Below are positions 21,001 through 53,400 of a DNA stretch of 64,000 nucleotides, one piece after another (within the stretch, counting starts at the first letter, position 1; every line of letters starts with the position of its first letter). A program made the translations under genes and the position numbers. The stretch spans positions 70,224,181-70,288,180 of the forward strand of contig NC_058340.1 of the NCBI RefSeq assembly GCF_905475395.1, given 5' to 3'. The DNA comes from Chrysoperla carnea. Its lineage: Eukaryota > Arthropoda > Insecta > Neuroptera > Chrysopidae. Below the pieces are notes generated by a model, which searched no databases, had not been told where the DNA came from, and saw nothing but the letters and a program-made list of their open reading frames with translations.

Positions 21001-21483
21001 GTTTCCCCGCGCATACATCCGGTATGGGTGGGGAAAATGCTGCTAGAAAATCGTAAGCCTTTAACGTGTGTCATACAAAATTTATGCTACATAACGTGTA
21101 ACTTGTCAAAAAAACAAGTACTTACATTAATCTGGGTGAAGGATTTTTGGATTAGGAAATCCAATGCATATCAAAAAATCAATACAAAATCAAAACATGT
21201 ATCAAAAAATCATGATGAAAATCAATTTACAAAGCATGAAATTACGTAAACATTTTCAAATGGTGAGTACACAAAATATTATTATTTAAATTAGTTTTGA
21301 AGCCGCGTTTTTTTAAATTAAAACGGTATAATTTTTTAAGAACACAAATGAAATTAGTAACAAATTACTTGTAAGTAGGGAAGTCATGTACTTTTAAAAA
21401 ATTGATCTGTCAAAATTGAATTGAATTTGCTACCGCTTTATTTTTGTTTTTAAAAAAATATAAAGTGAAAAAATATAAAAAAA
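18014..21483. other. Divergent spacer between Tm1 and the ORP9-type gene
   Basis: About 3.5 kb lie between the Tm1 promoter (minus) and the ORP9 ATG (plus). It should contain the ORP9 promoter and 5' UTR, but no TATA or initiator stands out. A possible donor (AATG|GTGAGTAC) near 21,260 could mark a non-coding exon. A lone MITE-type terminus (TATACAGGGTG) sits near 19,650. No coding exon was recognised. Confidence 0.4.
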
Positions 21484-24400
21484 ATGTCTGTGATGGAGGG
21501 TTCGTTAAGTAAATGGACCAATGTCGTTAAAGGATGGCAATATCGTTGGTTTGTACTTGATGAAACAGCAGGATTACTGTCATATTATACTGTAAGTGAC
21601 AATTAATTTCATTTCGTTTTCATTGTTTTGATGTAATTAACATAAATACAATTAATTGACATGTCAAATGTCAATATGTAAGTATTTTTATTTAAATAAA
21701 TTTCTATAGTGATTTAATGTCAAACAGGTGTACGGGATAATTTAACTTTTACCGGTTTTTTTTTTTTGTAATTTTTCATTTTCATTGATTTTATATTAAT
21801 TCGTAAAAAATGTACATAATCTTCGCTAATTTAATTATTTATGCATATTTTCCTATTTTTATACTTTTTATTATGTATGTACAAAAATTGCAAAAATAGC
21901 AAAAAATCGAAAAATTTTTGTTATCTCCAATTTCGATAAAACTCAGTATATAAGGTAATTTTGTTCCAAAAAGTATCCAATCATTAAATTAACCTGATTT
22001 TTATACTTTTTGTATCAAAATTACCCCATACACCGAGTTTCATCAAATTCTGGAACAAAAATTTCTTTTGCGTATTTCTCGATTTTTTCAAAGGGGTTTC
22101 CCCTTAAAAAAATTGCAAAAAATCGAAAAATTATTTTTCTCTCCGATATCGATAAAAATCAGTATAAAAGGCAATTTTGACCCAAAAAGTACAAAAATCG
22201 GATGCATTTGTTGACTGGTCGAATAGTTTTTGATATATGGACTATAATCGATCCAAATATTGCGATATCTCAGAAACTCTGCATCCAATCATTGAATTAA
22301 CCGAATTTTTATACTTTTTGGATCAAAATTACCCCTTCCACCGAGTTTCATCAAATTCCGGAACAAAATTTTTTTTTGCGTTTTTCTCGATTTTTTCAAA
22401 GGGGTACCCCTTAAAAAAATTGCAAAAAATCGAAAAATTTATTTTCTCTCCGATATCGATAAAACTCAGTATATAAGATAATTTTGACCCAAAAAGTACA
22501 AAAATGCTTTTGATGACTGGTCGAATAGTTTTTGAGATACGGACAAAAATCGATCCAAATTTTCAAATATTGCGATATCTCAGAAACTCTACCCACTCGC
22601 TTCGCTGGGCAATTGCAAATTTGTATATAAAGACTATTTCGTTATAAACTTAACTTCATTTGCCATCACTTATTTCCGCTTTCGTACACAATTTCGATGG
22701 TCTTAATTTTTGGTCTTAATTGTGTCGGACAGAAAAGCTAGAAATAAAAGCGCGTTTATTATGTTTTATAAAAGGGCAAGCGTACAATTTTCTGCTCGGC
22801 ACAAAATATTTTATCGCGCATTCGCCAAAAATCAAAAGTCTATTTCTGTTAAACAAGAGCTAACTAAATAACGAACAATTTGCTACTCTTGTAACATTTT
22901 GACGATCGCTATAAATAACTTACAATGACATCTAGAGGAAATCGAATGAAACAATGTAAAAATGTAGGTACTTAGACTGAAATAAGATTAGATAAAAACA
23001 AAATTATGTTTTATTTGAAATAAATATTATTTATTATTAAAACGTATATATAATCGATAAAATATAATCGTTATAATGATTTTGCATTGGTTTGATTTTT
23101 TGCATAAGCATTCTTATAAAAATCATAGAATAAATAATAAACTAGAACTACATTTGGAATATACAAGAATCCCAATTCTTTTGGTACGTTGCATGTTGAT
23201 GGCAATGCTGTGAAATAGTGTACGATTATTATTGTAAATTGGACCTGTAACAAAAATTAAAGAAAAATTGTTCAAATATGAATCAAACTTAATTTTATAT
23301 TCCAAATCATCAGAGAGATAATACACACTAGAGGGACATAGACATTGGAAACGTCTAATAGTGAGAAAGGTAGAAAGAGACAGAAATTGGAGTATACATT
23401 TTTGTTGTTATTATAGTTGGCGCGGAAAAGAATGTATGAGAAAGAGGAAGGAAGACAGCTATACGATATCCCTTTTGGTGTCTTTTTCTATTACGATCAA
23501 CCTTTGGTGGGGACTTTACACCTCTATTGCGTATTATCTCTATGCGAATCACTCTAAATCTAGATGAGTTAACAATAACCTAATATGAAGTAACTAACTT
23601 AAAATAATACATTTTTCAGTAAAAGGAACCTGCCGCCTTCTTAAATAGCTTTAACTCCTTACTCCATGTCTCAAAGTAGGTTTTCAATATGAAAACCAGA
23701 GTACAACTGTAGAAAGAAACATTGTAATCAGAGTCTGGTCACGAGTAATCTATGATTGGTTTGCTATTTTTAGGTGGAATTTACATCGTCCCTAGTAGCT
23801 GTCGGCTCGCAACCCTCGCGAGTTGACTGTAACTCGCAACCCTCGCGAATAGACTGTAACTCGCAACCCAACTCACACGAAAGTTGCTGTCTGCACTAGC
23901 CTGTTTACATGAACGCTGATATCAGTTTCTGACGCGAAACTGAGAAGGAAGAACGCGAGGTTCTGTCGTTTGATGTGTTGAATGCAGACGAGTGGATCAC
24001 GCAATTGATAGTACCTCAATTGCGTAGAGTAGACTGTAACTCGCAATCCAACTCACATGAAAGTTGCTGCCTACACTCGCCTGCTTACATGATCGGGGAT
24101 AATATCGTTTCTGATGCGAAACCGAATGAGAAGAACGCTAAGTTCTGTCGTGTATTGTGGTGAATGCAGATGAGTGGACCATGCAATTGATAGTAACTCA
24201 ATTGCGCAGAGTAGGCTGTAACTCGCAACCCAACTCACACGAAAGTTGCTGGCTGCATTGGCCTGCTTACATGATCGCGGATAATATCGTTTCTGATGCG
24301 AAACCGAGTGAGAAGAACGTTAGGTTCTGTCGTTTATTGTGGTGAATGCAGATGAGTGAACCATGCAATTGATAGTAACTCAATTGCGCAGAGTAGACTG

Positions 24401-27400
24401 TAACTCGCAACCCAACTCACACGAAAGCTGCTGGCTGCATTCGCCTGCTTACATGATCGCGGGTAATATCGTTTCTGGCGCGAAACCGAGTGAGATGAAT
24501 GCGGTGGATCGCACAGTATATAGTAACTCACATGATACGTTTATACAATGACAGAAACTTTCAACTACTGTTTAGAAGAACTCGTATTCTAAGCCGTACT
24601 GTGTAAACCTTAGTCAAAATATGGTTGAGAGCAAGTCACATTATGAATCTTGCTTCACCTTTCGCCGCAGTCAGGTTTACTTTTTTATTTACAATACGGT
24701 GTCTGGCTATCGCCATATTAAATTTAGTTTTTTTAGAGCGCCAAATAGGCACATTCAAACAAACATACATAGACTTGACATTACTCTCCTTTGCGTCACG
24801 CAGTCGTGTAAAAATATAATAAAACGGTATAAAAACAGTAGGAACAATTTAGCCGTGCATGCAACGAATGGCTAAATTTTTCTTAAAATAAAATTGCTAA
24901 AAAATAGAAAGTTAGAAAAACAATTACATTTTTTCTAAAATGAATATTTTTTTTATTAAAAGATAATAAAAATATGATAATAAATATGATCATATTATCA
25001 AATAGAAAATATCATATTTGATAATATGATTATGAAGCTACAAAGATTTTTTTGTCTCTGTTTTTTTCATATAAGTATTTTTATAAAAATCATAAAACAT
25101 ATAATAAATGAAAAGAACATTTGGGAGACCCATTAAAGCCCCTGCTAGTTTTGGTGCTTGGCATGAAGGTGTCAATGATGTTAAATAATGTAATATCATT
25201 ATTGTGAACTGTACCTAAAACAAAAAAGACCAAGTGTATGGTCACTTATAGTGGGGTTCGTTCCACACTGTTCAGAACTGTCAATATTTTTTTTTTTTTA
25301 ATTTAAAAGATAATAAAAATATGATAATATTTTCAAATATGATCATTAATACAGATAATAGAGAAGTCCGCTGCACTCTTCCATAATGCACTAATTTGCA
25401 GAAGTTATTATACCATGTACATATGAAATATGTCAAGGTATACTAAGTTTTGTCCCAAGTTTGTAATGCTTAAAAATATTGATGATACAAAATTTTTGTA
25501 TAGGTTATCATAAAATCACCCAATTAGTACATTCGCCCGTCACCTCGATAACTTAAAAACGAAGTAAGATATCAAGCTGAAATTTGTATAGAGTGCTGAG
25601 GACGTAAAAAGTGTGGTAGAGGTCGAAAATGAGCAACATAGGTCAAGGTCTTGGGACCGTAAGACCCGTCTTGTAAACCGTTAGAGATATAACAAAATTA
25701 TAGTGTAAATAATGTTTCTTATAAAAAAATAAACAACTTTTGTTTGAAACATTTTTTCGTAAATATCATGTGCTGAATGTAAATGCGCAAAATTGTTATA
25801 ATTTTGGAGCGTGTTAGTGTCGCCATTGTGAGGAAGACCGTTACGGCCTATATCTCCGGAATAGCAATAACCTTTATTGTAGATAATTCAATTTCCTATC
25901 TTTTTTTGCTGAATAATGTTTTTTCTATCACTTACCGTTTACGACTTATTAAAAAATCTCTATTATCTGTAATACATATTTGATAATATGATTATGAAGC
26001 TACAAAGATTTGTTTGTTTCTGATTTTTTCATATAAGTATTTTTATAAAAATCATAAAACATATAATAAAGGAAAATAACGTTTGGGAACGCCATTAATG
26101 TTGGTACTAATTTTGGTACTGGACATGAAGATGGCAATGATGTTAAATAATGTAATATCATTATTGTGAACTGTACCTAAAACAAAAAAGCCCTAGTGTA
26201 TGGTAATTTGTGGTGGGGTTCGTTCCACACTGCTCAGAACTGTCCTTTTGAGGATGTTCATTCTGATGAAATTTATATAAAAAGGTAAAATAAAAGTTTT
26301 CTTACCATTTGTATAATTGTTAACGATTGTTTCCATTTTATTAGTCGTTGTTGCATTTTTTTCCCGAATAATGCCAAGAAATAGTAGGTGTACATTAAAA
26401 CATGTACAAAACAGTTGATTAACATTGGAAATGTGGCCATTCCACCTAAAACATTAATGGATTTTTTCGTAATTACTATTTATTTCCACATATTTTAATA
26501 TTTTTAAAATTCCCCCCAATTTCTTATTATAATTTTATTTTGGACAAACTAACTTAGAATATTTTTAAATTATAATAAAATTGTTTAGGAATCGAACTCG
26601 TGGCCTCTCCCATATTTCTATAATTTCCTTATTTTAACTTTTCTCATTTCCGATTTCTACATTGAGCGTAAATTGCCTTCTTCTCCTCTAGCGCTAATAC
26701 TATTTGCATCAATAATTGAAATGGAAAATACACACATTCGGGGAGAATCGAATCCACGAACTCTTGCATGTTTGAAAGTACGCTACCTCTGCCCCACCGT
26801 ACTCCCATTTAGACCAATAGAATAAAAAGCATAATTTTAGGTCCATGCATATATGGTTAAAACTAATACCTGCGAAATATTTCGCCCCAATCCATACAAG
26901 TGATAATGTGGATACATGATGGTAAACATGTAAAAATGAGATTTGTTTTTTCTTTTTACGTAACACAAAGAATACTGTCTCAATTAAATCCACCATTTTT
27001 AACATAAATAACCACCATACGGTTTTTGCCATACGCATTTGATCGGGATCTGTTGTGTATAACACTGGCTGACAACCCCATGAATATGTTGTTAACCAAC
27101 CACTTATTAGTATCTAGAACAAAAAGCAACATTTAAAAAATATATAACTTGGATCCTTTGGAGCTTGCCATATGCTAGCAGGGATTGCAAATTACAAATA
27201 AAATCGTTTCTTAACTTACCGAATAACAGATAATAGCATTTGCAAATACTTGAAATAGATTATAAAATGCAATAATTTTTTTCAAATTGTATGGCTTCCT
27301 ACTTTCCATATATTGTGGACCGAGTTTATATATTACATATAAATAACCAATTATTGTTATCACCAATGGAACAGGACTGTCCATAAATGGCCATTGTTCC

Positions 27401-30400
27401 ACACGTTTATCTGTAAAAACAAATTATGACAGAATTAGACGAGGGAATAATAATAATACTTCTCTCAGTAGTATATTGGTTAATCGCCTGATTCGCGGAA
27501 TAAACTCCCCAAAGTTAGCCGAGTGAAGCACTCACTACCATGTTCTCGTTTTACTTCACAATAGCGTTGCCAACTCAGTGGTTTTACCACTAAAACTAGT
27601 AGGCTAATACCTATCCCTATATATTATCTCTAAATGTGAAGGATGTTTGTTTATTTGTTACGCTTCCACGCAAAAACTAGCGAATGGGTTTGAATGAAAC
27701 TGTACAACAATATAGTTCATATATCAGAATAACACATGAGCTATAATTTATAAAGATATAAGTATTTTAAATAAAAAAAGTTTTCACTGTTAAGCTTAGT
27801 CAAGCGGGCGGGTATCAAGCTAGTATATCTTAATTATGCAAGTAAAGTTGTTTGTTTGTTACGCTTTCACGCAAAAACCAAAGGATGAATTTGAATGAAA
27901 CTAGACAATAATATAGCTCGTACTTCAGAATAGTACATGAGCTATATATAATTTATAAAGATATATTTAAACAAAAATAAAACACTTATATTTATTGTTT
28001 TATCATTTCAACCAAGGTTTCCAGACATACTTCTTACATTAAAAAAAAAAAATTGAAAACTGATACATTTTAAGAACGTGATTTTGTTAATAAAATTAAC
28101 CATAATCAATTACAAAAACTTTTGAATAACAATGCTTTGTAAAAACAAAAACAGCTATTGAACTAAACAAGTAATCGCGAGATTATACGCAAAACTTGGC
28201 AGCCTGTGGAATGCCTTCCGTAAAAATTCAATAGTCATGGCAGGCCATCACCGATTTGAAGCCGATTAAAATTAGCATGTCTGTGTTGCTATCCATTGCT
28301 GAGTGATTCAACTCCTCGAAGCATTTAAAAATAATTCTCGATCAGAATCTTGAGGGGCTTGATTACAAAACAAAGATTTCTGCTTATAAAATTTCGACAC
28401 CCTTTAAGTAATCTTTATGTCGATACCCACGTATAACGTCACTAGTGGATATCTTCCTGTTTGTTTAAACGTTCATATATTGCATACAAATATAGATCTT
28501 TAAAAACTAACTTCACTTTTTTCTTCGTAAAGTGAAAATTCTTCATCCGATGTGATACAAAAAACTTAGGCCGAACCCTATTCTAAAAGTAGGCAAGAGG
28601 AAAAGTAACATCTTTCAAATTTTTGACCTGTTAAAATAAGAATTTAAATGGAAGTTGACTCTGGGTCAAGTTCAAATTATGAATAAATATTTTTTGAAAA
28701 ATTTTTCGAATGCCACTTCGGTGAAACTCTTATATCTACCCGTTTTCGAGCCTGTTTTAATTCACAATCAGTGAACCTGTTTCATGAAATACTGCATGGC
28801 TATAATTTTTAAAACGAACGAAACTGTGATATTTTTTCTTCTTTCCGGCTGAGATTCAATTTTTATTTAGATACTGTAAAATTTTTATTTAAGCCTTAAT
28901 GTCTGTGTAAATTCTATGACGATCTTTTGAGTCAATCTCTATTTTACTTTAGCAAGAATTTTAGTGCCAAGAGTTTCAAATTTCATAGAATTTTCTCGAA
29001 GGAATAAGGTATCAATCGAAAGATGATCAAACAAACACGCATTCACATTTCTAATACTAAGTAAAGATATATATATATATAAATAAATAAAAGTAATTAC
29101 CTGTAAGTTCGTGGAATACGAAATTATATTTTTCAGCAATAGTTGCCATTTTGATCCCCCAATTATTTTTTAAAAAAACAGTCTAAGAACTACTAAATTG
29201 CATAATTTATGTCACCAACGTGCATGTACCATTTCTCGGTCAGAAAAGAAACGGTGTTCAATCAATAAATAACTGATCGAATTTTTAAAAATATTGATAT
29301 GATGTTTAGCAATATAAATTTGTTTTTTCACATTTTCATGGCGTGACGTATGGTGTATTGTATTATTAAATCATGCTTTATACTACCTGCTGTATTCAGG
29401 ATTACTACCAAGTTTTTTTTCCGATATTTATACTTTAAATTGAATTGTTTAGGAAGAAATTCGTCCGAATTTTCAACAATTGTATTTTTGCGAATTAAAA
29501 AAATTATGTTTTATCATTTTCTGGCCCGCTTTTAGTTTGTAAGTCGAAAGCGAGCCCTTAGCGAAAGAAAACTCCACATAATCCTATAGGAGAAAATTGT
29601 AAATTTGTTCTAGTTTAAGAATCTTTTTTATTTTTTCAAATATCTCTATTAAAACTTGAGTTATTGTAATCGAACTCGAATGTATGATGAAAAAATCTTT
29701 AAATCGTGTATAGACAAACTTTGAAAAGCTATATCTTCGAAACTATCCTCCCTATAAAAACCGGCTTGATCTACAATTATTGCAAATTATTTTTAACTTA
29801 ACTTTCTTTAAAAATAAACTAAAGTTTTGATGAAAAACCAGCCCTTCCAAGTCAAAATCGGCAAAAACTGAAATAAGGTCAAAATTTTAGAGGTTTATCT
29901 TATTTTTCGGCATGATCCGGTCGTTTGCCGAGGTCGAAAACTTGGATTTAACATTACCATTACGTTGAAAACAACAAACATACTTAATTTGATGCAACGT
30001 TCACTCCCTTTTCAGATTTTCTTTCGCCAAGGGCTCGCTTTCGTCTTATAAACAAAAGCGGCCTAGAAAAATGATAAAACTTAATACTTACAATCGTACT
30101 AACTTCGTTGCTATTGCATAAAACGCATTTTTATGTACATAACACTAAAATAGAGATTCATATCTTTAAAATTAGTACCTTAAAGTACAAAAATATTATT
30201 AATTGGCCAATCTACGGACGTTTCAAACCAAACGCTTAGCGCTGACCTAATGCAATATCATTTTCGTTTACGGTCGTATCAAGACGAAAAAAAAAAAAGA
30301 AATATTTAGAATAAAATTGGACTGAACTGTTTAGAAAAATTTTCAATAGTTTAGGAGGTATGGCCGTATAAACAATTAAATTGTTTATAAAGATTTTTTC

Positions 30401-32480
30401 CCCCCACTCTGATCGATAAGCAAGTTGAAAATTCGGATTCAGCGGGTCGAAATACACTCCTTGTTAGGTGGGACCTATTGATGCACACGAAATCCACTCA
30501 GCGCCTGTACTATTTGTCATGCTTTTAACTAATGAATATCTTAAGAAAATTAGCCTTTTAATAGTTCAACGCAAACTTTAACATCCCAAATCTAAAAAAT
30601 TTAACATAAGGGGTATTAAACAATTTTTGCTGGTTATGAAGGGCATTAATGATAATGCATATTCACCACGATTTAAAGATTTTCTTAAGAAAACGTTCCT
30701 TCTCGAGAAACGTCCCTAATACACAGGGACTGTTATTTGAATCATATAAATGAGACTTTATCGAAAACATTTTTTAGCTATTTCATGAAAAAAGCCAAAA
30801 GACAAAAGTACAATTTATTGAATAAATGTATAATTTAAATGAAATAAAAACGCATTATGTGAAAAAAATATTAATTTCCTGAACCATTACGCGCTATTCT
30901 CTTTCATTACGTAAATCGTTTGTTTGTAAATGAACATTAGTGACTGGGCTTTTTCAAAATATTCTAATACACAATAGCCCTGGAGCCGGTGACAGTAAAA
31001 CTGCACTTACACGGATTTCGAAATTTCACATATGAATCAATACTATTTAACGATACAGCCAGGATTTTTTTTATTTTTTTACTGGTGTGGCAGATATTTT
31101 GGTCAAGTGTTGTCACACCGAGATATTTCGGAAGTAGAACTCAAAACGAACAAATTAAAAAAAAAAAGAAAGTAATTCCGCGATAAGGGTAAAATTTTAT
31201 TGGCTTTATATATTAAAAGTCGGTGTGACAGACCTTTCTGCTACGATAAGAGCTGTCACACCTCCTGAAAATAGATAAAATTTGCAACAAAATGATCTCT
31301 CTTAATTTCCATGAAAGTGCAAAATACTTTTTATTCGCTTAGGCGCTACGATGCCACAGACAGACAGACACGCACACAAACACACATAGCGGTCAAACTT
31401 ATTAAGCGAGCTCCCCTGGCACACCTAGTCCATATTGTACCAATCGTTAAATAGCATTGATTCATATGCGAAATTTCGAAATCCGTGTAAGTGCAGTTTT
31501 ACTGTCACAGGCTCCCCACTTACAACAAAAATTTATTAAAGAATTTTATTAGGTCTAGAACTGAACGTAATATTTGACACGAATTTCAGAGAATTTCAAA
31601 ACGGCTGACAAATATGATAATATTTCCTCTACGTAAATTTTTATTGTCAGAGGTGATTTCCGTTTCAGAGTATCCGGAAAATTTTCAATTGAATTGCAAT
31701 AAAAAAATGCAAAAATCATTCAATTCGATACTCATAATAAGGTGTCTATCGTTCCACATCTAAAATATTGAAATTTTTAAAATGTCGAGCAACGGATATT
31801 TTGAGATTGAATTTTTCAATCTCGCATTCAGACAAAACAAATTGCTTACTGATTATTTTATTTTTCTTAACCCCCGAACTATAAAAAGGGGTTGCATAAG
31901 TTTGACCGCTATATGCGTCTGCCTCTCTATGGCATCGAAGCGCATCGTTTCGTTTGAAAGGTAATTTAATGGGGAGTGTTCTTAGCTATGTTTCAAGTGC
32001 GAGTTTATGGTTCCGTATCCGGAACAACTAAAAAATAGGCGATGATCCTCAAAATGGGATCAGTTTGGAGAATTCTCTAAGGAAAAAGATCATTTAATGG
32101 AGAGTGTTCTTAGATACGTTTCAAGTACGAGTATAGAATTTCGTATCCGAAAAAATTCTCGGAGGTTTTCTAAATTTTGTAAATTTCACTTGGATAGGTA
32201 TAAATTTTCTTTATTGTTGACCAAAGATTATTCAGGCAGCCTATATATTTTATAGAAATTTTTTTCTTATTTGTTTCAGTCAAAAGAGAAAATGATGCGA
32301 GGTGTAAGGCGAGGCTGTGTGCGATTAAAAGGTGCTATAATTGGTATCGACGACGAGGATGATAGTACGTTTACAATCACCGTCGACCATAAAACATTTC
32401 ATTTTCAAGCACGCGATGCAGAAGAACGTGAAAGTTGGGTGCGGGCATTAGAAGACACAATATTACGACATGTATTTCGT
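21484..32480 (+). CDS. OSBPL9: ORP9 exons 1-2: PH domain
   Basis: Exon 1 (36 codons, ends TAT ACT|GTAAGT) and exon 2 (32,280-32,480, 67 codons) encode one pleckstrin-homology domain. It runs from the [16 protein letters not shown] first strands through [20 protein letters not shown] to the closing tryptophan helix ([16 protein letters not shown]). In ORP9 this domain binds phosphoinositides on the Golgi/endosome side. The two halves are separated by a 10.7-kb intron containing an opposite-strand gene. Confidence 0.93.
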
Positions 32481-35400
32481 GTAAGTAATTTTAATATGCT
32501 CTTTAAATTTAATTTCAGACACGAAAATTTCTAACATAAAGCGAGACAACTTTCAAATAGATTTATCGTTATATAAGGAGTAGGGTTTAAAATTATTGTT
32601 CGCACAAGCAGTACGATGAAGTCTGCGATATAAGTAGTAAGATTTTGTTATCCAAATCATACTTACCTGGCGTAGAGGTTACCGTGATCAACAAGGCGGT
32701 TCCCCCAGGGTGAGGCTTTTCCATTGCACTACGGTTAGGCTGACCCTTGCGATAATCCCTAATGTGGATAACTCGGGCGTGTAATTTTTGGTAGTCGGGA
32801 CTGCGTTCGCGCTATCCCGGTCTCATGTTAATCTAAAAATATCTAATCTTGATTTCAAATGCTCCAAGCATCAATGCTTGCCTACTGGCTTTCAGTTAGT
32901 TTAATCAAAATCGTTAATATTGTCCAAAATTTGACGTTTTTTTGGTATATTCATTATCCATATAACCATATACAACAAAATGTTTTAAAATCATATTATT
33001 TAAGGAAATTAGAGATTACAAGACGATTTCAAGGGTTCAGTTGTATATTTACAAATTTATATTGTGTATGCTTGTTTTAACATGCGTGAAATTTCCAACA
33101 TTACAACAATTATTTGTCTTTTTCTCTGCCTAAAATAAGCTGTAAAATTTTCATATAAATCCGCCAAGTTTATCTTCAACCAAGAGTCCATAAAATGTGT
33201 TGCGAAAATTACAAAAAAAGGTTGCCGTTATTATTTTCCACCAAATAGGGCCTACTTTGAAAGCAACTAAATAATTCATGTTGGTGATGGGGTAATTAAG
33301 GACGTTCCCAAAGAAATTACCTAAATGTTCCAGTATTTTTTTTTTTGGATAAAACTACGGTACCCTAAATACTTTTAAAACGTTTTGATATGAGACAAAT
33401 TTGTACAAAAATTGATTCATTATTGACAATAAATATTTATTATCACAATTCTTTACTGCCGGAACCCCCCAACGTTCTCCTTTCATTTTGGAAAAGAAGT
33501 AATTTGAGAAACCATTGTTCGAAGACAAACAACTTTTTCTGTCTGTATGTCATTGTGTAAAAATTTGTTAGTTTTTATCATGAGAATTTAATATTAATTT
33601 TTCATATTTTTAAAATTAATTACCAAAATTAATTAAAATGTCGGTAAGTTTTAAAAAATAAAATTGCCTTGGGGAAAAATAAATGCAATTTTTTTTAACT
33701 TGTTTAATATTGTTGAAATTTTTTTTAGGGGTGTTCATTTTTGACGGTTTTGAATAAATCTTCCTCAATAATAAAACTGGGAACATTTCTGAGAAAAGTG
33801 GATTTAAAACCGTTTTTCCAAATATGAATAGTTTTCATTTTAAAGTATGTTCGGATAAAATTTGTGCATCTTTCAATAAAAATAAAGTGAATTTCATACA
33901 AACGATGGTCATAGTTTGTCCAAGAGCAAATGTTTCTTAAAAACATTGTTCGAATTATTATTCTCTTGACATGAATCCAACAAACGCTGGTTCGATTCCA
34001 CGATAGGACATTTTTTTAATTCTCTTAATATGAATAAAATTTTTCTAAGTATATTCTAAAAACAAACAGCTTTCAATTAAAATGTCCTAAATTTAGCAAA
34101 TTCTACCTTTAGAGAATTATCCATCTAACTTGAACGTATTTTTTTCAGATGAAATGGGAGTGTAATCGAACACAACCGTCAATTGCCGATTTCGATAATA
34201 AAGTTGCTGAAGCGGACGCATATTTACAAATAATGATTGATCAAACTAAGGTAATTAAAAACTTTTGGAACTAATTCATAAATAATTGGAAAGTTAATAT
34301 TAAAAGTTCTTTTTTTTCTAGGCAATTGAAGAACAAATACCAAATATAACGGATTTAGAAGAACAAGAAAAATATAAAATGTTACAGGATCAATCAAATG
34401 TAAGTATCTTGAGAAATAGCGAAAGAGACCATTGCCTGTATGTCCTTACATATTTTAAGCATTCTCAATCTAGGCCGTAAGATCGATACCCAGAATTATG
34501 TGCCTCATTTTCTAGCTTCTACTTCACAGGGGACTGAAAATCATTTAGGTGTTCACTGAAATGAAGAAAAATTTGCAAGTGAACTGCGTGTTTTTGATTT
34601 TCAGTCCCTAAATGTCAATTCACAGGCTTTTATACCGTCAATATTATGTATGCCAAGCAGGGCCTGATTAAACATTTGAGGGGCCCTGGATCGCATGCTC
34701 GCTTATTCCATCAGCCATTTGCTGAATGATTTTTTCACATATTTTTTTCATTTGCTTGTTTGTACAATCTGACACAAAGAGTGATTCTCTCTCATCTCTG
34801 TATGGCAGTAATTATGTGACCATAGACATAGAAAATAAAGCGTTCTCGATCTAGCTGTCAAATAAAGTGTTACAAAAAATTATGTGGGATTTACGGGGGA
34901 CTCGTAATTCTGATGTTCCTAGGGCCTAAAAAATGGTTAAAGGCGACCCTGCTTTCTCTTTCAAAGACTTTAGTGCATATGCTTTCTGAGACATTATAAA
35001 TATTTACTTACATTTGAAATTTTTATTTTCAGACTATGCTCGACAACATTAAACATTCCATTGTATTACTTCAAATTGCAAAGGTATTTTTTTCTTTTTA
35101 TATGATATTTATTTTCAGAATTATCCTAAAAGGGGATTTCCTATATCATTCTCTGGCTCTCTGAAACTTTTGACTCAAAACCTACAAAAATCGTGTTCAA
35201 CACTAATTAAGCCGAGAAAATCCTCAAAAATTTGTTTTTAAGAATTTGACGGAAAAATAGGGTGATTTTGACACAGAAAATATAAAAATCGAGTTCATTT
35301 AATGATTGGATGATACAAATTTATTACTTCTTTACCGCTCTCCGAATCCACAATAGAGAATATTCATGTATTGTTTTTATATTTTTAATTCATTGTTTAC

Positions 35401-50400: not shown

Positions 50401-53400
50401 GTTTTCTCAAATGAAAGTGAAACAACAGCAACATCCACAGACAATAGTACTAATGAAAAAGTGGAAATACATAATTCTGTTAGTGACACACTTTCTGAAA
50501 GTAATAATTTAAGTAATGAAAATTTACGTAAAGTTTCGACAGCGGTTAGTGAACGAACATCATTACCATTGAACGATGATGGTTCTATTAATTATGATGG
50601 TAAGTAAAACTCTAACAAATTTTCATCCTTTTCTTACATAAAATTTTTCATCTCCTAAAAAAGGGAATATGTAATTACAAAATATCGTTTCTATTTGCTC
50701 TGGGAAATAAATTTGAATGAAACTTTTTATACCGTGTTTATAGGATCCCAAGAAACATTGAGTCAACTTATCCTAGTCAGAAAAGGGCATAGGGCCCCAG
50801 CGGGGGGCATATGAACCCTTATTTTTTGGAAATTTTGGCTTAAAATTGTTATCTAGTAGGTAATTTTAGTCATCTAATACGAAGCCGATGTCCGATTACA
50901 CGGAGTTTGCCCATCTTTCGAAAATCGCATCATTTTTGACCAAGAATTTCATTTTTTTGGCACAAAAACTAAATTAAGTATTTCTCGTCCAAACTGTGCT
51001 CTTGGAGGTATTTTTGGTTGCTGATTACGAATCCAAGATTAACACGAATTCTGTCACATCTTCTGAAAATCGTGTCATTTTTGGCAAAGAATTTAATTTT
51101 TTTGGCACAAAAACGACAAAGTAAATGTTTAAAAAAATGACGCGATGTTCGCTGCGATAGATGCGAAAAAAGTGTATTTTATAGTCTTTTTATAAAATCG
51201 GATGCGCATACAAAATATTAGTAAATTATTCTTTTTAATTAAAAAAAATGTCCTTAACAATATTTTCAGTCCTGGAAATCCATTAAATATTCATTATTTT
51301 TACTTTCCAAATTCGCATGATTTAAAATATAACTTTTTTGTTTAAAGCTTTGTATGACGAAGACATTGAGGAAGACTCTTCATTAATGGAAGCACATGGT
51401 TCAGTAATAACACATTTAATATCTCAGATCAAAATTGGTATGGACCTAACGAAAGTTGTATTACCAACATTTATATTAGAACGACGATCATTACTAGAAA
51501 TGTATGCTGACTATTTTGCACATCCAGATTTATTTGTAAGGTTTGTAAAAACATAAATATTATCTGTTAGATCAAAAGACTATCGTCGCATTCTTAACAG
51601 TTGTCAGTCATGGCCGGATTAATCATGTTGGAGGCTCTAAGCTTTTTCTATCTTTTGTTTTTGAGTGTATATACGTCATTAATATTTTAAAATAATAATT
51701 TTTTTTCTCCGGATAGTATTGCTGATCAAAAAGATCCAAAAAGTCGTATGGTACAAGTTGTTAAATGGTATATGGCCTCATATCACGCTGGTCGTAAAAG
51801 TTCTGTTGCCAAGAAACCATACAATCCAATTTTAGGTGAAGTATTTAAATGTTGGTGGGATTTACCGCATGATAGTCAAGAAAATTTATCATCTTCATTA
51901 AATAATTCGACCATTACGACATCGACTAGTGACCAGAATGTTGATACGTCACCGTCGTTGGTAACAGATGGACCTGTCCCGTGGGGTACACGAGATCAAC
52001 TTACATTTGCTGCTGAACAAGTATCACATCATCCGCCAAGTAAGAAATTTTCCATTAGATAATATGTAACATTCCCTCTTTGGATAATTTCTGCGCACGG
52101 CCCTGATATCTAAGATAATTTTTTCACCCGGTATAATATAATTTTTTTGTTTGTTTCTAGTATCAGCGTTTTATGCCGAACATTATAACAAACGTATAAG
52201 TTTTTGTGCGCATGTATATACAAAATCAAAATTCTTAGGTTTATCTGTATGTGTATATAATATTGGAATAGGTAAAATTACGTTATTAGATTATAATGAA
52301 GAATATACGGTCACATTTCCAAATGGCTACGGTCGATCAATATTAACGGTACCATGGATTGAGTTAGGTGGTCAAGTAAAAATTGAATGTCCACAAACAA
52401 ATTATCACGCGGATGTTGAATTCTTAACGAAACCATTCTATTCAAATAAAAAACATCGTATTACAGCGGACGTATATTCAGCAAATGATAAAATACCATT
52501 TTTAAAAGTATCCGGTGAATGGAATGGTGTTATGGAAGCCAAATGGAATGATGGTGTTAGTATATTTTTATTTATTATTTAGGATTAGCTGATTAGCTAC
52601 AACTAAACCAGGATAATCTGGACTTATATGCGATTATGATTAACCTGAGCCATGTAATCTAACAGTCAAATTTTTATTCGGTGTTAGTTTTCTTTAGATC
52701 ATTACCTCATTTTTGAAATTTCATTGAATTTTTTCCCCATGATTGAAGTAATAATAATAATACATAAGAGGGATATCGCAAATGGGTGCCTAGCACCTAG
52801 ACCATGGAGTCCTCTATGTCCTTCTTGAGAACAACAACCTTTGCCACTCGAAGGCAAGACTGTTCTGGGTAAGAGTTGCTATTTTAAGCAGATGAAGCTA
52901 TTGGATTCTGACGGGGCCAGAAGTCACACTCTAACTCCAAAGTGGTCCAGTAATTTGACTGTGTTATTCAGCGACAGACGGTTGTTTTAGCAAATAATAA
53001 TTTCAAAAATTTTAATATTTTTTTAGCGAACAGAACCATTTATTGATGTAAATAAATTAAAAGTTGTAAAGAAAAAGGTGAAACCAATCAGTCAACAAGA
53101 AGATAATGAATCACGACGATTATGGAAAGATGTAACCGCTGGTTTACGGTTTAATAATATTGAACAAGCTACACAAGCTAAAAGTGATTTAGAACAGAAA
53201 CAAAGAAATGAAGCGAAAGAACGTTTACGAACAAATGACAAATGGGAAACAAAAGTAAATATTTTTTATATTTAAATATTATGTAATAATTCTGATGATA
53301 TCATGATCATCATTTGCACCCATTTCTCTCTTTTCTGTTGCCTTATTGCCTGATGAACGTTAGCTTTTTCACGATGCTGTTATTATTAGTTCCTATTATA

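Follow-up and report, generated by a model that had tools for sequence, protein, structure and literature searches.

A stretch of 64,000 nucleotides (nt) from chromosome 4 of the lacewing Chrysoperla carnea (C4:70224181-70288180), referred to below as the window, was analyzed. It contains, on the minus strand, a single divergent ELO elongase gene (ELOVL gene) with four upstream exons and three last exons, 5a, 5b, and 5c. We consider it likely, at a probability of about 0.72, that 5a, 5b, and 5c are alternative 3′-terminal exons of this one gene, which arose by two duplications, and that one of them is joined to exon 4 in each transcript. The reading frames are observed directly, and the splicing is predicted from them. 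The exons, in window coordinates, are as follows:

29101..29149, minus strand: exon 1, coding part from the ATG; GT donor; the frame runs into exon 2
27220..27410, minus strand: exon 2; genome match with an expectation value (E) of 4.0e-38
26870..27113, minus strand: exon 3; HVYHH box and loop-2 cysteine (SWGCQP); aligns to ELOVL7 (6Y7F)
26306..26445, minus strand: exon 4; ends ..TIIQM; GT donor; phase 0
26000..26176, minus strand: last exon 5a, 58 amino acids; AG acceptor, phase 0, in-frame stop
25038..25214, minus strand: last exon 5b, 58 amino acids; AG acceptor, phase 0, in-frame stop
23071..23244, minus strand: last exon 5c, 57 amino acids, with the loop length of the family; AG acceptor, phase 0, in-frame stop

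All three last exons were found where the original prediction had placed them, and each of them is open. The start codon of exon 1 was assigned from frame and context. Exons 1-4 show GT..AG at their junctions, and the products spliced with 5a, 5b, and 5c have 266, 266, and 265 amino acids, respectively. These products matched the Pfam ELO profile (PF01151) with E values of 1.2e-62, 8.4e-64, and 3.8e-63, covering positions 1-241, 1-241, and 1-240 of its 242 positions. The 5c form, in its residues 16-263, matched human ELOVL7 (PDB 6Y7F) with an E value of 4.7e-55. Cysteines are present both in loop 2 (exon 3) and in loop 6 (codon 18 of each last exon). The HxxHH box of the ELO family is represented by HVYHH in exon 3. 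Slightly upstream of the histidine box, an acidic pair in exon 3 is swapped in comparison with the E..DT of the paralogues (e.g., SKFTEFFDTLFFVLRKK), which has possibly changed the enzyme.

The window was searched by tblastn with the three isoforms at E ≤ 10. This search detected no upstream ELO exon between 5a, 5b, and 5c, and no other match in the window was convincing as an ELO exon. The best leftover match was a low-complexity piece of the plus strand near 22320-22440 (E 0.058), which gave E 0.005 against the 5a exon alone with the filter off. In the 10 kb flanking the window on either side, there was no ELO match at E ≤ 1. Genome-wide searches with PF01151 (34 matches) and with the full-length protein (36 matches) both placed their chromosome 4 matches solely at this locus; they score the best candidates only, and the PF01151 results do not list 5b or 5c. 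The closest paralogue pieces in the full-protein search were 43-45% identical. Complete upstream exon sets for 5b or 5c elsewhere were looked for among these genome-wide best candidates, and none was found. A DNA search of the genome with the duplicated unit that carries 5b (delimited below) matched only 5b itself, 5a (89%), and 5c (73%), and also gave a 44-nt overlap of the unit with itself on the opposite strand. Searched with the protein of exon 5c, the genome showed 13 matches (E ≤ 1): three at the locus and one at each of ten other places. The earlier claim that the last exon was triplicated inside one gene, rather than three genes being present, is supported by these data, as no other ELOVL exon was detected between the copies and the three copies were found at this locus only. 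The three-exon arrangement is far beyond chance.

The other ELO genes of the genome were surveyed in 19 stretches around them. A last exon was recognised in ten paralogues on chromosome 1 (C1), each with a single one in the stretches examined; in 10/10 of them, the xQF start of this exon directly follows an AG acceptor, as at the locus studied here. The ELO gene on C2 has one weak last-exon place, and C1:99.27 Mb has two weak ones; the paralogue row C1:99274544, a single residue, was left out of the residue counts and the tree. Since the ten paralogues have one last exon each, the triplication appears to be particular to this gene within the stretches searched. In an unrooted tree of the 13 last exons, 5a and 5b were grouped with a support of 0.991, and 5c joined them at 0.977. 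Because the loop of 5c is as long as that of the ten paralogues and 5a and 5b share one extra loop residue, 5c most likely retains the ancestral form. Two successive duplications of the last exon would then have taken place, the first separating 5c from the ancestor of 5a and 5b, and the second separating 5a from 5b. The unit shared by 5a and 5b is about 274 base pairs (bp) long. Within it, 68 nt of intron (7 differences) precede the exon (21 differences), and the 3′ flank adds about 28 nt; the two copies are:

25971..26244, minus strand: 5a copy of this unit, with its intron part, exon, and 3′ flank
25008..25282, minus strand: 5b copy of the duplicated unit; from the alignment with the 5a copy and the genome DNA search

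A 182-bp tandem repeat lies between 5b and 5c (23850-24499, 3.6 copies, 89% matches), and no other copy of it was found in the window or the paralogue stretches searched.

Two explanations of the array that do without alternative last exons were weighed against these results. That the three exons are relics of three tandem genes whose upstream exons were lost is very improbable. Tandem ELO genes do exist in the same genome (C1, 71.15-71.35 Mb), but no upstream ELO exon was detected between 5a, 5b, and 5c by tblastn at E ≤ 10, and the best-candidate searches gave no second ELO exon set on chromosome 4. Moreover, the 5a/5b unit reaches no more than 68 nt into intron 4 upstream of the exon, and therefore no other exon was copied along with it. 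Three degenerate genes were rejected on these results. Still more remote is an assembly artefact in which haplotype copies were joined in tandem. Tandem near-copies are a classic artefact of assembly, but here the introns of 5a and 5b differ at 7/68 sites and their exons at 21/177, a repeat (described below) lies in between, and 5c is much more diverged than either. In addition, the assembly was built from PacBio reads with Hi-C scaffolding, and haplotypic duplications were purged during curation (PMC10116181). The artefact was rejected on these grounds, and triplication of the last exon in one gene is retained.

The use of all three exons was assessed from their conservation. Eight residues that are invariant among the paralogues, including the loop-6 cysteine (Cys in 10/10 paralogues), are kept in 5a, 5b, and 5c. 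The synonymous divergence (dS) between 5c and 5a/5b is 0.58-0.87, and in the comparison of 5a with 5c synonymous change exceeds replacement change (Fisher p = 0.012). Exons simulated under neutrality to d = 0.45, which is half the dS of 5a versus 5c, stayed free of stops in about 3% of cases, and the eight residues were also kept in 0/5000 simulations. The case for constraint on 5c versus 5a/5b is fairly good. Alternative use of the last exons is likely because the frames, splice sites, and invariant residues are intact. Retrocopies of spliced mRNA, which were sought as indirect proof of splicing, were not present among the 36 protein matches listed.

The regions behind the exons were inspected for poly(A) signals. 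The nearest AATAAA follows the stop of 5a at +122 nt, that of 5b at +81 nt, and that of 5c at +36 nt, and the background on this strand is about 0.85 AATAAA/ATTAAA per 200 nt. As the frequency of the hexamers is near background, these signals carry little weight. Just behind the stop of 5a lies an insertion:

25352..25969, minus strand: dispersed repeat of 618 bp with 13-bp terminal inverted repeats and flanking TATTA

A single AATAAA/ATTAAA, at 25878, occurs less than 500 nt from the 5a stop, and it is located in this repeat. Hexamers behind all three exons are candidate poly(A) signals, as proposed originally. When the repeat was excluded, homology of the 3′ flanks of 5a and 5b extended, with gaps, over about 60 nt (score 118 versus a shuffled maximum of 53); the repeat was probably inserted after the 5a/5b duplication. 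The 618-bp stretch, used as a query against the window and the paralogue stretches, gave 35 blastn rows, itself included, and most of the 14 rows listed of these 35 fall within its inner part. With the repeat set aside, the AATAAA behind 5b (~24957) matches an ATTAAA behind 5a (~25300), which now stands about 700 nt from the 5a stop.

Several points weigh against regular use of all three exons. Three looser columns of the alignment (Y in 7/10, F in 9/10, and L in 9/10 paralogues) show departures in all or two of the three exons. The synonymous excess between 5b and 5c is not significant (p = 0.17). Half of their lower dS (0.58) is about 0.29, and at a neutral d = 0.2, 11% of exons remained stop-free and 0.4% also kept the eight residues. 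The evidence for constraint on 5a and 5b taken separately is weak. The poly(A) hexamers occur near chance frequency, with the nearest one of 5a inside the repeat insertion. Dscam-type docking was tried and rejected: in 12 pairings of exon-upstream elements with candidate docking regions, none was clearly above the shuffles (z -0.45 to 1.41). The exon-proximal 5a could be the sole exon in use. More generally, one last exon (5a or 5c) may be in regular use while the others are recent duplicates or decaying copies that are still open by chance, an alternative which we consider unlikely. The 5a/5b duplication is recent, and at such divergence (neutral d = 0.05-0.1) 52-28% of exons stay stop-free and 21-6% also keep the eight residues; the ratio of replacement to synonymous divergence (dN/dS) between 5b and 5c is not significantly below 1, and the insertion has displaced the matching poly(A)-like stretch from the 5a stop. 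However, acceptor, frame, stop, and the eight residues are preserved in each of the three exons, and 5c has been separated from the 5a/5b ancestor for so long that an unused copy should probably have decayed by now. Alternative use of the three exons remains the preferred reading.

The positions at which the last exons differ were then mapped. In codons 1-14 (transmembrane helix 6, TM6), 5a and 5b show no differences. Of the 21 nucleotide differences between them, 18 fall in codons 15-37 (18/69 sites versus 3/108 elsewhere; Fisher p = 4e-6). A scan permutation gave p = 1e-4 for this cluster; it covers the position of the patch and not its width, the limits and width having been set after viewing the data. 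In codons 15-38 the proportions of synonymous and replacement differences (pS and pN) are 0.31 and 0.23. With helix limits drawn from the alignment with ELOVL7, the patch would run from the end of TM6 through lumenal loop 6 into the start of TM7. The differences of 5c from 5a/5b are broader: TM6 and TM7 carry conservative changes, and the loop is shorter by one residue. The original prediction that each choice swaps TM6, the loop, and TM7 agrees with the differences found in loop 6, but not with the unchanged TM6 (codons 1-14) of 5a and 5b. Within the patch, both replacement change (12/53 versus 7/96 sites, p = 0.010) and synonymous change (6/19 versus 8/116 sites, p = 0.005) exceed those in the non-coding flanks (rounded counts). 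Simple positive selection on the patch was rejected, as synonymous change is raised there too. Since both kinds of change lie above the flanks, homogenisation of the flanks by gene conversion is preferred; the pattern suggests that conversion evened out the surroundings of a retained variable patch in 5a and 5b.

In the proposed mechanism, exon 4 would be spliced to one of 5a, 5b, or 5c, and cleavage and polyadenylation would occur behind the chosen exon. Three enzymes would be produced, in which the first 208 residues are identical and the acyl tunnel has a different floor on its lumenal side. The choice between 5a and 5b would mainly affect loop 6, together with the final residues of TM6 before it and the first part of TM7 after it. 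In ELOVL5, loop 6 shuts the acyl tunnel at its endoplasmic reticulum (ER) end, with its cysteine doing the closing, and the shape of this loop varies among the elongases modelled and is linked to substrate preference (PMC10449689). The loop-2 and loop-6 cysteines of the lacewing enzyme fit such a tunnel-closing disulphide as a predicted bond. As loop 6 forms the ER-side closure of the tunnel, the isoforms are probably distinguished by the acyl chain accepted, the extent of elongation, or stability. For a yeast elongase, Denic and Weissman are said to have shown in 2007 that the position of a juxta-lumenal TM6 lysine acts as a chain-length caliper. In 5a, 5b, and 5c the loop lysine is at codon 22, and codons 1-14 of 5a and 5b are identical; therefore, no lysine is displaced along TM6 and the yeast caliper does not apply literally. 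What stands of the caliper proposed originally is that the swapped region overlaps the tunnel-closing loop 6, which may change the shape of the pocket.

The C-terminal tails also differ, reading NKSL in 5a, KKSL in 5b, and AKSL in 5c. KKXX is an ER-retrieval pattern, which is fitted by the tail of 5b and not shared by those of 5a and 5c. As the tails differ, localisation is a live rival: the isoforms may differ in ER localisation, dimerisation, or stability and not in chain length, which we regard as somewhat unlikely. The ELOVL5 variant G230V, located at loop 6/TM7, has an altered conformation and is proteotoxic (PMC10449689), in favor of such a difference. Against it, most nucleotide differences between 5a and 5b (18/21) sit in the lumenal patch and not in the tail. 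The fullest form of the chain-length reading, in which one animal elongase gene would yield three chain-length-specific enzymes, with conversion homogenising the remainder of 5a and 5b and selection keeping the tunnel-end patch distinct, is a tentative proposal, and the odds are rather against it.

On the opposite strand, the ELOVL gene is flanked by two open frames, with approximate limits:

21469..21606, plus strand: open frame with the first half of a PH domain, on the upstream side of the host intron
32256..32534, plus strand: open frame with the second half of the PH domain, on the downstream side of the host intron

OSBP-domain exons follow further on (~51416-52546, plus strand), and together with the PH halves they appear to form one OSBP-related gene. 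The entire ELOVL gene lies antisense inside the intron that splits the PH domain, so that two lipid genes are nested. Just past the second PH exon, a candidate U1 spliceosomal RNA was found as a full-length match to Rfam RF00003 (143.1 bits, 32659-32821, plus strand).

In insects, the chain lengths of hydrocarbons are as a rule ascribed to specificity differences among separate elongase genes (PMC11974489). If the reading given here is true, chain length would be switchable by splicing within one gene, and three natural loop-6 variants on one enzyme body would allow a test of how ELO enzymes measure chains. One isoform of the mosquito elongase AGAP004373 is differentially expressed; most isoforms of the mosquito genes in that work differ in untranslated regions only (PMC7351493). 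In C. carnea, alternative splicing is known for a serpin and other venom genes, and a transcriptome of long reads covering eggs, larvae, and adults has been described (PMC12758981). No elongase with tandem terminal exons was present among the literature matches listed by a full-text search (titles and starts of abstracts, mostly from outside the subscription literature), and none is described in the accessible parts of PMC8315507 and PMC11974489, which is a weak indication that none exists in print. Tandem terminal exons and specificity switches by exon choice are already known.

Drosophila pip and PGRP-LC likewise carry tandem homologous terminal exons, whose choice depends on splicing and 3′-end formation (PMC9013439). 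In contrast to them, the exons described here end a membrane lipid enzyme and are predicted from the gene sequence, and no competing RNA structure was found at the lacewing locus in the 12 pairings tried. In helminth coq-2 and human CYP4F3, exon choice shifts the substrate specificity of one enzyme, a kind of control which the authors of the coq-2 study call rare (PMC7434440). The coq-2 switch involves two internal exons and its function was tested, whereas the lacewing gene offers three terminal exons read from its DNA. Human ELOVL7 (PDB 6Y7F) belongs to the same family by sequence and was compared at that level only. A further parallel is the yeast caliper, where TM6, loop 6, and TM7 are also held to set chain length; the length difference in the lacewing gene, however, is one loop residue in 5a/5b, with TM6 the same in 5a and 5b.

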